In this document: positions 5,351 to 28,778 of the stretch, in pieces
Layout of the letters: every line of letters starts with the position of its first letter
Position numbering within the stretch: position 1 is the first letter of the stretch
IMG/VR virus record: IMGVR_UViG_3300033153_006210
Span: 1 to 30,341 of that record
From: a virus
Reading direction: 5' to 3' (one strand)
DNA length: 30,341 nt
Translations under genes and position numbers: made by a program
The notes under the pieces: model-generated
The model's database searches: none
Told to the model about the DNA's origin: nothing
What the model saw: the letters and a program-made list of their open reading frames with translations, nothing else

Positions 5351-5566
5351 ATGTTTTATAGGGTAAGTGTAAAAGAAGTGCATAATCAGTATGTTTGGGT
5401 TGAGGCAGACAATATCGCCTGTGCTATTAGAAAAGTGGAAGATGGTAAAGGGGATAATTTGGAATCTCCTGCGGAGTATGAATATACTCTTGAATCGGAT
5501 GAGTGGGGGGTAGAAGAAGAAACTACGCAAAATATAATTGATGCGTATAAGCACTCTCAAAGATAA
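5351..5566 (+). CDS. DpnD/PcfM-like small protein (71 aa)
   Basis: ATG 5351 follows AAGGAGATTAGCT. The sequence YRVSVKEVHNQYVWVEADN, then AIRKVEDG, follows the DpnD/PcfM C-terminal pattern: a Y-x-V-x-V-x-E strand, a V-x-V-x-A strand, then a helix with A-x3-V. It ends in an acidic tail. Such proteins accompany plasmid or phage accessory genes; their biochemical role is unknown. It is followed by a terminator and a promoter, so it ends a transcription unit. Confidence 0.65.
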   Translation: MFYRVSVKEVHNQYVWVEADNIACAIRKVEDGKGDNLESPAEYEYTLESDEWGVEEETTQNIIDAYKHSQR

Positions 5567-5580
5567 TCCCCTTATCTTAT

Positions 5581-5612
5581 AGCTGGCGAGGATGTAAGTC
5601 CAGCTTTTCTTA
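5581..5612 (+). terminator. rho-independent terminator
   Basis: AGCTGG (5581-5586) pairs with CCAGCT (5600-5605) across a 13-nt loop, and the 3' arm runs directly into TTTCTTAATTTT. It sits just after the gene ending at 5566 and just before the promoter at 5633, an ideal position to insulate transcription units. Confidence 0.6.
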
Positions 5613-5632
5613 ATTTTATTGTAAAAAAAGAC

Positions 5633-5661
5633 TTGACTTTTGTGTTGATTTATGGTATAAT
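5633..5661 (+). promoter_or_regulatory. sigma70-type promoter P4
   Basis: TTGACT at 5633-5638, 17-nt spacer ending TTTATGG, TATAAT at 5656-5661, with the AAAAAAAGAC flank before the -35. The next ATG is at 5671, about 9 nt after the -10, so the mRNA would be nearly leaderless. Confidence 0.85.
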
Positions 5662-5670
5662 GAGGGTACT

Positions 5671-5817
5671 ATGAAACGAAAACCAAAAGTAGCTGAAATT
5701 GTAGGCAGAATAGAGGCGTTTCTTAACGATGTTGATACGGAGTTAGCCGATATATTGGACGTTTATAACTATATTTTCGGGGACTTGACAGAGGATGATG
5801 TGGATAATACGGTATGA
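5671..5817 (+). CDS. hypothetical acidic helical protein (48 aa)
   Basis: ATG 5671 is the first start after promoter P4; only a few leader nucleotides are possible (GAGGG lies within them). The basic start (MKRKPKVAEIVGRIEAFL) is followed by an acidic helix (DVDTELADILDVYNYIF) and an acidic tail. No family recognised. Confidence 0.6.
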   Translation: MKRKPKVAEIVGRIEAFLNDVDTELADILDVYNYIFGDLTEDDVDNTV

Positions 5818-5956
5818 AAATTATACGAGAAAAAAACATAAAGAAGAGGCGGAGTGCCTTGAAAAAATATTGAATTATTTGGTTCACAAAAAGATTATGA
5901 ACAGCCTGTTTTCATTTGGAAAGGTTAAGACTTGTTATGAAGATGACAAAAAATAA
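5795..5956 (+). CDS. hypothetical basic protein (53 aa)
   Basis: ATG ATG at 5795-5800 lies within the preceding gene, directly after AGAGG. The frame gives MMWIIRYENYTRKKHKEEAE followed by a helical segment (CLEKILNYLVHKK) and ends just inside the next gene. It fills the otherwise empty 5818-5936. The competing 19-codon frame at 5814 is less gene-like. Initiation is not certain. Confidence 0.4.
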   Translation: MMWIIRYENYTRKKHKEEAECLEKILNYLVHKKIMNSLFSFGKVKTCYEDDKK

Positions 5957-6131
5957 AAGATTTAGTATAAGGCCCCGTTATCACTTTAACATGTGGGGGC
6001 TTCCTTTTGCTTTATTTTGGGACTTTAATAGTATTTATAAACAAAAAATAAAAAGAGGCTGGTTTTTTCGTGGAACAATAAGGTTTTTATGTTTTAGTTT
6101 CTCAATAGGTTTCGACAGTGAAGATAATTAA
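5937..6131 (+). CDS. hypothetical aromatic-rich protein (64 aa)
   Basis: Start taken at ATG 5937 (alternative ATG 5943), with AAAGG about 12 nt upstream. The sequence has FNMWGLPFALFW, a basic stretch, then FLCFSFSIGFDSE. A protein with the same WGLPF...FFCFYLYIE layout is encoded at 11232, so the two are distant paralogues. Small phage proteins with the (L)PF...FLCF.F.I pattern are common; their function is unknown. It overlaps the next gene by 14 nt. Confidence 0.6.
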   Translation: MKMTKNKRFSIRPRYHFNMWGLPFALFWDFNSIYKQKIKRGWFFRGTIRFLCFSFSIGFDSEDN

Positions 6132-7468: not shown

Positions 7469-7695
7469 TACAGCCACTTGCTGACCATTTGGGCTATACA
7501 AAAACAGAATGTGATGGGGTTCTTTGTAAGCATTTGCTAACAGAAAATCCTGGGACTAAAAAAGAATATGTAAAGTCTAAGTCTGATTTGAATCGTGCAG
7601 AGTTAGCTCGGTTTATAGACGGGGCTATAATGTTAGCCGCCCAACAAGGTGTTGTAGTAGCTCCACCAAACCCTAACTGGAAATTAAGTAAATGA
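7465..7695 (+). CDS. NinB-like recombination protein, C-terminal part (frame-broken)
   Basis: In the -1 frame relative to the upstream part, the sequence reads VVQPLADHLGYTKTECDGVL, then SKSDLNRAELARFIDGAIML, AAQQGVVV and PNPNW, matching the remainder of the family (VV.PLIAEHLGYT..E....L; AA...GI.IPDPN). No start codon with a ribosome binding site exists for it alone; the first start-like codon is TTG 7489. The break lies at about 7457-7465. No X-XXY-YYZ slippery site is evident there, so an indel (real or artefactual) is more likely than programmed frameshifting. Confidence 0.65.
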   Translation, partial: VVQPLADHLGYTKTECDGVLCKHLLTENPGTKKEYVKSKSDLNRAELARFIDGAIMLAAQQGVVVAPPNPNWKLSK

Positions 7696-8213
7696 AAACA
7701 TGTGAAAGTTGTAAGTGGTTTGGTGGATATACCGGGGAGTACTTTGCTGAGTGTAAAAAGTACTGGTGTGCTAAACTCAACGGCAGCCACTGTTATGTTA
7801 AAGATATTTGTAAATTTTATGAAAGGAAGACTATGACTGATAAAGAAGCATATCGACATTTACAGGCTTCGTGGGTTAGGGATAACAACGTGAAAGTTGG
7901 GGATATTGTTAAGGTGCTTAGAGCACCTACTACCCCAGAGGAGTTAGGTTATGGTGGACTGGAGGTAGATGAAAAAAGAAGATATGTCGGTGGAACTTTT
8001 GAGATTATAGGATTAGGAATGCTTGGGGTAAAAAATCTTGCTGTAGTTTTGGATGTTCCAGACTCGCGGTTTAATTGTTTCCCATTCTTCTGTCTTGAAG
8101 TTGTTAAAAAAGCCGAACCTAAAATTAAGATTACTTGCGAGGTTAATGGGAAAGTAAGTAAGTTGTCAGATATAAGTGAAGAAACACTGCTTAAAATAAG
8201 GAGACAATCGTGA
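7692..8213 (+). CDS. Cys-rich domain fused to a duplicated KOW-like/unknown domain (173 aa)
   Basis: ATG 7692 overlaps the preceding TGA. Residues 1-46 are a Cys-rich unit (CESCKWFGG...CAKL...C). From residue 48 the sequence MTDKEAYRHLQASWVRDNN is paralogous to the protein at 8514 up to the shared C-terminus (SEETLLKIRRQS). An internal ATG at 7833 has its own AAAGGAAG, so a shorter product may also be made. VGDIVKVLRAP resembles a KOW/SH3-like beta start, but this is weak. Its last codons contain the binding site for the GroES gene. Function unknown. Confidence 0.7.
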   Translation: MKTCESCKWFGGYTGEYFAECKKYWCAKLNGSHCYVKDICKFYERKTMTDKEAYRHLQASWVRDNNVKVGDIVKVLRAPTTPEELGYGGLEVDEKRRYVGGTFEIIGLGMLGVKNLAVVLDVPDSRFNCFPFFCLEVVKKAEPKIKITCEVNGKVSKLSDISEETLLKIRRQS

Positions 8214-8521
8214 GAACTCTAAAACCAATCAAAACCCGCATTTTACTAAAAGAAATCAAAAGAGAGGAAAGCTCTGGGGGAATCAAACTCCCAAGCAACG
8301 CATACGCCGTGTTTAGTGAAGGAAAGGTTATTGCTGTTGGGCCGGGAGTTACAACAACTGACGGTAAAGAAATTAAGCCACAGGTAAATTTGGGGGATGT
8401 CGTTCTCTATGCTGCGGAGGGTCCGGGGATAATGGACATTGATTTTGAAGGAGAGGACTATATAATTCTTCTCGACGATAGTTATGTGTTGTCAATTGTT
8501 AAGGAAGCTGAAAATGACTGA
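8210..8521 (+). CDS. groES: GroES-like co-chaperonin (103 aa)
   Basis: GTG 8210 follows AAGGAGACAATC. The sequence follows cpn10: LKPIKTRILLKEI, the mobile-loop region EESSGGIKLPSNA, GKVIAVGPG, LGDVVLYAAEGPG and EDYIILLDDSYVLSIV. Length is typical (about 95-110). GroES caps GroEL to fold client proteins; phage versions such as T4 gp31 act with host GroEL, usually to fold the capsid protein. No GroEL is present here, so use of the host chaperonin is inferred. It sits between two paralogous genes (7692 and 8514) and overlaps the second. Confidence 0.85.
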   Translation: MRTLKPIKTRILLKEIKREESSGGIKLPSNAYAVFSEGKVIAVGPGVTTTDGKEIKPQVNLGDVVLYAAEGPGIMDIDFEGEDYIILLDDSYVLSIVKEAEND

Positions 8522-8906
8522 TAAAGAAGCATACCAACATTTACAGGCTTCGTGGGTGAGGGATAACGATGTGGAAGTTGGGGATATTGTAAAAGTTTTG
8601 AGAGCACCTAAAGACAACGAGCTTGGTAGTCGTGTTTTTTGTACCGAAGCAAAAAAAGAAATGGTAGGAAATAATTGTCAGGTACGAAGCATAAGGCCAA
8701 ATGGGGTTTGTTTGAACGGTTGGGCCTTCCCCTTTTTCTGCGATTATTTACGTGTGGAAAACGTGGGCTGTTGGCCTTTTTTCTGTCTTGAAGTTGTCAA
8801 AAAAGAAGTACCTAAGATTAAACTAACCTGTGAGGTTAATGGCAACACTGTGCCACTAAGTACTTTAAGCGAAGAAACACTACTTAAAATAAGGAGACAA
8901 TCGTGA
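8514..8906 (+). CDS. paralogue of the 7692 gene's C-terminal domain (130 aa)
   Basis: ATG 8514 is chosen behind AAGGAAG; it overlaps the GroES stop. The product begins MTDKEAYQHLQASWVRDND and ends LKIRRQS, as in the 7692 protein; the central part differs and carries FPFFCDYLRVENVG. Both genes end with the same DNA, AATAAGGAGACAATCGTGA, which supplies the binding site and GTG of the next gene (GroES or SSB). A tandem duplication of a gene plus its downstream start signal is the simplest explanation. Function unknown. Confidence 0.7.
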   Translation: MTDKEAYQHLQASWVRDNDVEVGDIVKVLRAPKDNELGSRVFCTEAKKEMVGNNCQVRSIRPNGVCLNGWAFPFFCDYLRVENVGCWPFFCLEVVKKEVPKIKLTCEVNGNTVPLSTLSEETLLKIRRQS

Positions 8907-9298
8907 ATAGGGTAATTCTATACGGAAATCTTACAAAAGACCCAGAGTTTAAGAGCATCGGGACTACAAACGTAGCAAACTTTGGCATTGCCATAAACCG
9001 CCGAACCAAAGCTGGACAAGAAACGACTTTTGTTGATATTTCTGCATTTGGCAAAACCGCAGAGAATATAGCCAAATATTTTACCAAAGGCAAGTCAATT
9101 CTTCTCGAAGGTAGGCTGAAATTGGACGAATGGCAAGACAAGACGACGGGCGGAAAACGAAGCAAGCTGAAAGTTGTAGCCGAAAGATTTGAGTTTGTGG
9201 GAACTAATCAAAACGGTGGGCAACAACAAGCAGCCCCACAAAGCTACTCTGGAACGCAACAGGCACCTACGGCTGCACCGGCTTCACCCTTTGTCTGA
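8903..9298 (+). CDS. ssb: single-stranded DNA-binding protein SSB (131 aa)
   Basis: GTG 8903 follows AAGGAGACAATC. OB-fold hallmarks: NRVILYGNLTKDPEF, NFGIAINRR, TTFVDISAFGKTAENIAKYFTKGKSILLEGRL, LKVVAERFEFVG. A Gln/Ala/Pro-rich linker follows. The extreme C-terminus is ASPFV rather than the acidic DDIPF tip that bacterial SSBs use to recruit partners. It coats single-stranded DNA during phage replication and recombination. Followed by a structured intergenic RNA. Confidence 0.95.
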   Translation: MNRVILYGNLTKDPEFKSIGTTNVANFGIAINRRTKAGQETTFVDISAFGKTAENIAKYFTKGKSILLEGRLKLDEWQDKTTGGKRSKLKVVAERFEFVGTNQNGGQQQAAPQSYSGTQQAPTAAPASPFV

Positions 9299-9310
9299 GA
9301 CTATATGAAA

Positions 9311-9431
9311 GAGTAAGCCCCGCAGGGCGGGCAGTACTGCCTTAAGTGTAAACCCCTCATGGCGGGCAGTCTGGTGAGTAAAACGGGAGACCTTCCCAAT
9401 GTTCGGTGATACGACTAACGGCCAGACTGCC
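9311..9431 (+). ncRNA. candidate structured RNA or cis-regulatory switch
   Basis: GC-rich stretch with two related units, both containing GGCGGGCAGT (9326-9335 and 9361-9370). GGCAGTACTGCC (9330-9341) is a perfect palindrome. GGCAGTCTGG (9365-9374) pairs perfectly with CCAGACTGCC (9422-9431), enclosing GGGA/TCCC and TCG/CGA mini-hairpins. The two GGCAGT and two ACTGCC segments allow alternative pairings. The last stem is followed by TTTT and then AAGGAG for the gene at 9449, so it could control that gene or act as a stand-alone RNA. Confidence 0.55.
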
Positions 9432-9448
9432 TTTTCAAGGAGATTGAT

Positions 9449-9682
9449 ATGGGTACAAAAATAACACTAACAAAAAGAGTAGCGTATTTAGAGAAGGAAT
9501 TAGCATCTCTGATAAAGATAAGCACTTGTGAGCATAAACACTTATCAGTTAATATAGATAGTGATGGATATTTATGGGACTACACTATTTGTCGAGATTG
9601 TGGCTTGCATTTATCCTACAAACCTTATTCAGGTCGAAAATTTACAAAGCAAGTAAAGAAAATTTTTAAACAGTTTGCTTGA
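9449..9682 (+). CDS. small zinc-binding protein (77 aa)
   Basis: ATG 9449 follows AAGGAGATTGAT directly after the structured RNA. An N-terminal coiled-coil-like helix (KRVAYLEKELASLIK) precedes CEHKHLSV and ICRDCGLHLSY, a ribbon-like Cys/His set. The C-terminus is very basic (GRKFTKQVKKIFKQ), suggesting nucleic-acid binding. Its expression may depend on the upstream RNA structure. Confidence 0.65.
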   Translation: MGTKITLTKRVAYLEKELASLIKISTCEHKHLSVNIDSDGYLWDYTICRDCGLHLSYKPYSGRKFTKQVKKIFKQFA

Positions 9683-27882: not shown

Positions 27883-28119
27883 CTAATCACTTACAGTAGA
27901 TACCGTACAGATTGTAACTGCTGGAGCACTTGCTGAACCTACCCTATCGCCGTCGCCCCACTTCTCAAGTCCTGGACGCTGACCTATACGAACTTTGTTT
28001 TCTAATACATCACGAGCACGCACATTATTCAAGTGGGCACTTGTTAAAGCTGGTGAAGTCTCGACTGCCCCGCCACGATGCAAGCCCTTTATGGGCAAAC
28101 TAAACGCTATGTGTGCCAT
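27883..28119 (-). CDS. N-terminal segment of the tail-nozzle-like protein as a separate gene (78 aa)
   Basis: ATG at 28119 overlaps the protease stop (TAATG). PIKGLHRGGAVETSPALTSA, then HLNNVRARD and VRIGQRPGLEKW, is the beginning typical of nozzle/stabilisation proteins (P..G......P..T....N.R........RGGQRPG). The frame ends at a TAG that doubles as the start of the next binding site (TAGAGGAAAG), so the split looks genuine rather than an indel. The two products may assemble together. Confidence 0.65.
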   Translation of the reverse strand: MAHIAFSLPIKGLHRGGAVETSPALTSAHLNNVRARDVLENKVRIGQRPGLEKWGDGDRVGSASAPAVTICTVSTVSD

Positions 28120-28778
28120 TACTCACACTCCTTCATTGCTCTATTTGCATAAAACTGATTCAAAAATAAGCGGGCCACCTTACTTGGTACAATAAATGTA
28201 ATATTGTTACCGCCCCCGCCAACAAGAATCCCTACAACATTCCCCCAACGATTAAATATACCACAACCAGAATCGCCGGGGTTGCCCGCAATATCCAATT
28301 GAATTACCTGCTTACTTCCAAAAGTAGGAATACTCCTGGACAATTTACCAATTACCCCTTGGAAAAAACTGTTATTTAGCCCATACCTTGAGCCAATCCC
28401 AAAAACAGTTTGCCCAACAAAAGCTTCGCAGAACGATAATCTGGATTTGGGAAGTTCCCCGTCTGCATCAAAAATAATCAAACCAAGGTCAGTATTAGCC
28501 GCCTCGTAAAACTCTGTTGACATAAACCGCTTGCCATTATCTGTTGTAATCTGTATCTCATTAGCGTCATTAACAACGTGTCTGGCAGTTAATATAATTC
28601 CATTATCTACAATTACACCGGAGGCCTGTCCTCTTAGAAACCCGTCTGACCAAATATGTACTGTTACTACAGAGTCTCGAACTCTCAAGGCTGCGAAGGG
28701 TATGCTAAACCACACCATAAGAAAAAGAGAAATAGCAAGCAAAGCAACCTTTACGGCGCGCCCATTACGCTTACACAT
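28119..28778 (-). CDS. membrane-anchored trypsin-like serine protease (219 aa)
   Basis: ATG at 28778 behind GGAGAGG. The hydrophobic segment VALLAISLFLMVWFSIPFAA (11-30) is a signal peptide or anchor after a basic start. Chymotrypsin/HtrA-fold motifs: LTARHVV (H67), NTDLGLI (D97), AGNPGDSGCG (S170), completing the catalytic triad, then GNVVGILVGGGG. No PDZ domain. Known members are degradative or processing proteases. Within a virion module it might process virion proteins or act in the host envelope; its anchor argues against an ordinary capsid protease. The stop overlaps the next ATG. Confidence 0.85.
   Translation of the reverse strand: MCKRNGRAVKVALLAISLFLMVWFSIPFAALRVRDSVVTVHIWSDGFLRGQASGVIVDNGIILTARHVVNDANEIQITTDNGKRFMSTEFYEAANTDLGLIIFDADGELPKSRLSFCEAFVGQTVFGIGSRYGLNNSFFQGVIGKLSRSIPTFGSKQVIQLDIAGNPGDSGCGIFNRWGNVVGILVGGGGNNITFIVPSKVARLFLNQFYANRAMKECE

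Follow-up and report, generated by a model that had tools for sequence, protein, structure and literature searches.

An undescribed, very probably structured RNA element downstream of ssb in a group of uncultured phages

What occupies the gap between ssb and the following gene in this phage genome, and does it hold a structured RNA with a role of its own? The window, i.e. the whole stretch of DNA analysed here, is the full 30,341-base virus record IMGVR_UViG_3300033153_006210. In it, ssb (8903-9298, + strand; Pfam SSB, E 5e-27; PHROG 44, E 2e-39) is separated by 150 nt from the gene of a 77-aa CxH...CxxC protein (9449-9682, + strand), called here the zinc protein, for which no match was found in Pfam, PHROG or the named phages. 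The window DNA itself matched no named phage, and the best identities to named-phage proteins were 49% for ssb and 38% for DnaB. An IMG/VR protein search with ssb gave two close relatives, IMGVR_UViG_3300033141_003411 (L001) and IMGVR_UViG_3300033148_004295 (L002); in a fourth relative, L054, the ssb is 72% identical. Homologues of the zinc protein are encoded in L001 (60% identical) and L054. The phage group that carries the element is small, little known and uncultured. Upstream of ssb, a GroES-like gene (8210-8521; Pfam Cpn10, E 3e-17) lies between two related ORFs in tandem (7692-8213 and 8484-8906); these ORFs share the start EAYxHLQASWVRDNxVxVGDIVKVLR and the end SEETLLKIRRQS, and a similar arrangement is seen in L001 and L002. 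Far downstream, a minus-strand block of the window contains a gene for a trypsin-like protease (28119-28778, - strand; Pfam Trypsin_2, E 1e-17).

The element proper is about 67 bases long (9365-9431, + strand), is present once in the window and probably adopts an overall three-way junction. Its closing stem P1 is formed by the 5' side GGCAGTCTGGT (9365-9375) and the 3' side GCCAGACTGCC (9421-9431). As proposed in the initial annotation, GGCAGTCTGG (9365-9374) and CCAGACTGCC (9422-9431) form a perfect stem of 10 bp, followed by TTTT and then by the AAGGAG of the next gene; all these coordinates were confirmed on the sequence, and we add an eleventh pair, U9375-G9421, which is invariant in all three phages. 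P1 encloses a 45-nt core. The core opens with the strand AGUAAAACG (9377-9385), identical in the three phages and found once in the window, whose final G is also the first base of the P2 hairpin GGGA-GACCU-UCCC (9385-9397). P2 is predicted with a probability of 0.95-0.99 and shows G-U pairs and double changes in the relatives. The following segment (9398-9413) comprises the joining strand AAUG (9398-9401) and a short variable hairpin, P3 (about 9403-9414), with a putative pairing of UCG 9403-9405 to CGA 9412-9414 in the window; P3 is firm in L001 only (GUAC/GUAC) and its pairing is insecure in L002. A second strand identical in the three phages, ACUAACGG (9414-9421), runs into the 3' side of P1. 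The U4 run after P1 (9432-9435) belongs to a UUUUC that is also found in L001, and L002 has UUUAA at this place.

Additional contacts within the core may exist. AGU 9377-9379 could pair with ACU 9414-9416 in all three phages, and since these letters never vary, covariation does not speak for or against this pairing. A weak contact of the P2 loop (ACC 9390-9392) with the P3-side GGU 9405-9407 might also be formed, as in each of the three sequences 3-4 bp can be drawn that join the P2 loop to the 5' strand of P3. The upstream near-repeat (9311-9364, + strand) with its palindrome GGCAGTACTGCC lies outside the conserved element and has no counterpart in L001 or L002. The palindrome is indeed present at 9330-9341. 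As it lacks a spacer, however, the one fold open to it alone is a hairpin of 4 bp (GGCA/UGCC around GUAC), which is predicted to be about 28% formed.

To what extent could such a fold arise by chance? When the 150-nt gap was shuffled 5000 times with its dinucleotides kept, 24 of the shuffles had a perfect stem of at least 10 pairs, so that the stem alone is suggestive without being conclusive. Folding of the 72-nt element gave z = -3.67, with 2 of 200 shuffles doing equally well, and the wider stretch 9300-9450 is unremarkable (z = -1.44). The decisive evidence came from the comparison of the three phages: P1 reads GGCAGUCUGGU/GCCAGACUGCC, GGCAACAAUU/GAUUGUUGCC and AAGCAGCU/GGCUGCUU, i.e. the letters differ and the pairing is kept. 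Among these three sequences, double changes affect 6 of the 8 compared P1 pairs and 7 of 15 pairs overall; such compensatory changes had been named beforehand, in the initial annotation, as the test of a structured RNA. When the partners were slid along the alignment as a control, double changes remained in just 1-2 pairs. Furthermore, 97.8% of the alignment cells pair, against 20-53% with partners slid by 1-3 columns, and the covariation score is 0.82, against 0.10-0.29 in the slid controls. With the window sequence left out, a covariance model (R3) trained on L001 and L002 alone recovered the window copy at 9368-9428 with 49.7 bits (E 5e-9).

The fixed letters of the core stand out from their surroundings. 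When the three intergenic regions were aligned, 32 of 315 columns were identical and the sole identical run of at least 5 was the 9-base core; the second core strand is misplaced in this free alignment and correctly placed in the alignment of the element. In the neighbouring ssb gene, 222 of 453 DNA columns are identical. Judged against these two levels of identity, the core letters seem to be under selection. On the + strand, no reading frame stays open in all three copies, so that no coding frame is shared by the homologues. The U-G that closes P1 is present in all three phages and P2 contains a G-U in L001 and L002; these kept G-U pairs speak for an RNA of the + strand rather than an element of the other strand or of DNA. 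A search of Rfam 15 gave no match at the gathering cut-off in the window, L001, L002 or L054, and at E up to 10 just a spurious 12-bit piece of Mu-gpT-DE (9430-9451). The element is therefore undescribed, outside every Rfam 15 family; the initial annotation, too, had been unable to assign it to a known class. Collectively, the covariation of the stems, the fixed core, the lack of an Rfam match and the lack of a shared frame point to a real, undescribed structured RNA, and we regard a conserved RNA fold as very likely.

Three members of this family were found in the IMG/VR scans, one copy per phage. The copies of L001 (about 5552-5623) and L002 (5478-5538) are, as in the window, near and downstream of ssb. 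In L001, a 50-aa ORF lies between ssb and the element, and the zinc-protein gene comes after it; in L002, the element directly follows ssb and is followed by a different ORF instead of the zinc gene. The region of L002 directly 3' of the element (5541-6083) carries several GC-rich hairpins besides this ORF, which looks HNH endonuclease-like by eye and gave no match in a Pfam search. A strict pattern scan of IMG/VR returned 34 loci, the real ones being just those of the L001 and L002 contigs. Two relaxed scans, in which the closing stems were checked (and, for one of them, the loci were checked by covariance model as well), gave no new member among the matches listed. Likewise, IMG/VR routes through neighbouring genes (ssb, DnaB, PDDEXK and the KFVKPTP protein), followed by mismatch-pattern and model searches, led to none beyond the three. 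A pattern scan of GTDB yielded 24 loci, at best 21.6 bits, with unconvincing closing stems, and a model search of 399 + 395 genomes from two phyla, sets that contained no positive control, found none. Since the pattern scans demanded the core letters almost exactly, diverged members were possibly missed. Among the literature matches listed for the core strings, no such RNA was found.

Several candidates were rejected. L246, from the GTDB scan, with 9 pairs, many of them G-U, and no model match, was read as chance. So was L053 9710-9764, which scored 23.7 bits (E 0.0095) with the two-sequence model only; it has an 8-bp stem with UCUAAC, but AAAACG is missing and the locus extends into the 5' end of an ORF. 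The 92-nt gap of L054 (9066-9157) was considered as a diverged copy and failed the model search. Another hairpin region, GGCAGG...CCUGCC with GGUAAACGG, occupies this gap and folds no better than shuffles. In L054, ssb and the zinc gene are retained and the element is missing, so that it is dispensable within the group.

What might such an element do? Tentatively, and with a little under even confidence, we propose a putative cis element at the boundary of ssb and the next gene in the early mRNA. The genes around the element are all co-directional and no promoter-like site was found on the + strand from 9041 to the element, so that its co-transcription with ssb is likely; these features, together with its position behind ssb, render a cis-acting role in the early mRNA the most likely one. 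In this view, transcription of the early operon would produce a small RNA domain from the + strand of 9365-9431, and the long P1 would present a three-way-junction-like core, in which the joining strands stay fixed while helices and loops drift. The domain would act in cis within the polycistronic mRNA, where ssb borders on the next gene. Its stable fold and, in two of the three phages, the short U run behind it may serve as a partial transcript end or as a processing or decay barrier, which would give ssb a different dose from the downstream genes. The fixed core could be the docking site of a factor, either a host or phage protein or a ligand. This boundary role is supported by UUUUC directly after P1 in the window and L001; against it stand the shortness of the U run, the UUUAA of L002, the varying flanking genes and the lack of the element in L054. 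A scan for intrinsic (Rho-independent) terminators called none at P1 on the + strand; a stem and U4 are present, but a 45-nt core replaces the short loop. The short U run and the lack of a terminator call make a plain terminator less likely. The ribosome-binding site of the next gene is not sequestered by the element, and the spacing to the next start codon is different in each phage.

Other roles have to be weighed against this one. The initial annotation had proposed a bistable switch with mutually exclusive pairings, and the strands required for it exist in the window, where pairing is possible for ACTGCC 9336-9341 with GGCAGT 9365-9370, and for GGCAGT 9330-9335 with ACTGCC 9426-9431. However, the first of these alternatives has a predicted probability of about 0.0002 and costs 4.2 kcal/mol, and the upstream strands, including 9336-9341, exist in neither relative. 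The switch is thus unsupported and largely refuted by the relatives, which makes it highly improbable and limits the element proper to 9365-9431. A single-stranded DNA hairpin for replication, packaging or recombination, functionally next to ssb, would likewise keep P1 by double changes, and ssb does adjoin; nevertheless, the U-G and G-U pairs are kept on the + strand and correspond to A-C mismatches on the other, and in L001 an ORF intervenes between ssb and the element, hence we find this reading improbable. A trans-acting phage small RNA, processed from the ssb message or terminated within it and titrating or blocking a host factor, would fit the single copy, the neighbours that are fixed on neither side, and a fold that is compact and stable and has a U run at its end. 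The lack of a close upstream promoter-like site on the + strand, and of a long conserved unpaired seed besides the two short core strands, render it unlikely.

Two further proposals give the fixed core a function of its own. The element may be a candidate self-cleaving ribozyme of an undescribed class, whose cleavage would separate ssb from the next gene in the early mRNA. Its small three-stem layout, with invariant core strands and freely changing helices, and the absence of a constant neighbour gene and of an expression platform would suit this role; indeed, variable stems, fixed junction letters and an intergenic phage site are the pattern of hammerheads. On the other hand, Rfam ribozyme families were unmatched even at E 10 and the hammerhead core letters are absent, and we consider this reading unlikely. 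A candidate riboswitch aptamer, binding a ligand and regulating the gene behind it through termination at the U run, is quite unlikely: the fixed core inside variable helices, the U run after P1 and the related zinc-protein genes downstream in the window and L001 are in its favour, but the downstream gene of L002 differs, no antiterminator strand is conserved, and the proposed alternative strand is absent in the relatives and its pairing is predicted to be almost unpopulated.

When a small RNA combines fixed junction letters with stems that change freely, its core usually serves binding or catalysis. The element could accordingly be taken for the first representative of a new small RNA class, a candidate ribozyme or aptamer with the core AGUAAAACG/ACUAACGG in an early operon, which we consider rather unlikely. 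If this were true, phages would possess another small ribozyme or aptamer class; otherwise, the element would be an ordinary mRNA boundary element. At about 67 nt, it can easily be made and tested.

Among known systems, the hammerhead ribozymes have the core CUGANGA/GAAA, and purine-class riboswitch aptamers are small RNAs with a three-way junction. Hammerheads have been recorded in intergenic regions of the phages PaP3 and Bcep176 (PMC3088659), and the element resembles them in its small size, three stems, fixed core, free stems and location between genes. It differs from them in its unrelated core and in the lack of an Rfam hammerhead match. With purine-type aptamers it shares a P1-closed junction and conserved joining strands, whereas an Rfam match, an expression platform, an alternative strand and a constant downstream gene are all lacking here. 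Structured RNA motifs of unknown function have also been catalogued by comparative genomics (PMC2864571, PMC8040213). Unlike the catalogued motifs, with which it was compared through Rfam families only, the element has three members and lies outside Rfam 15; like them, it is intergenic and is recognised by covariation.
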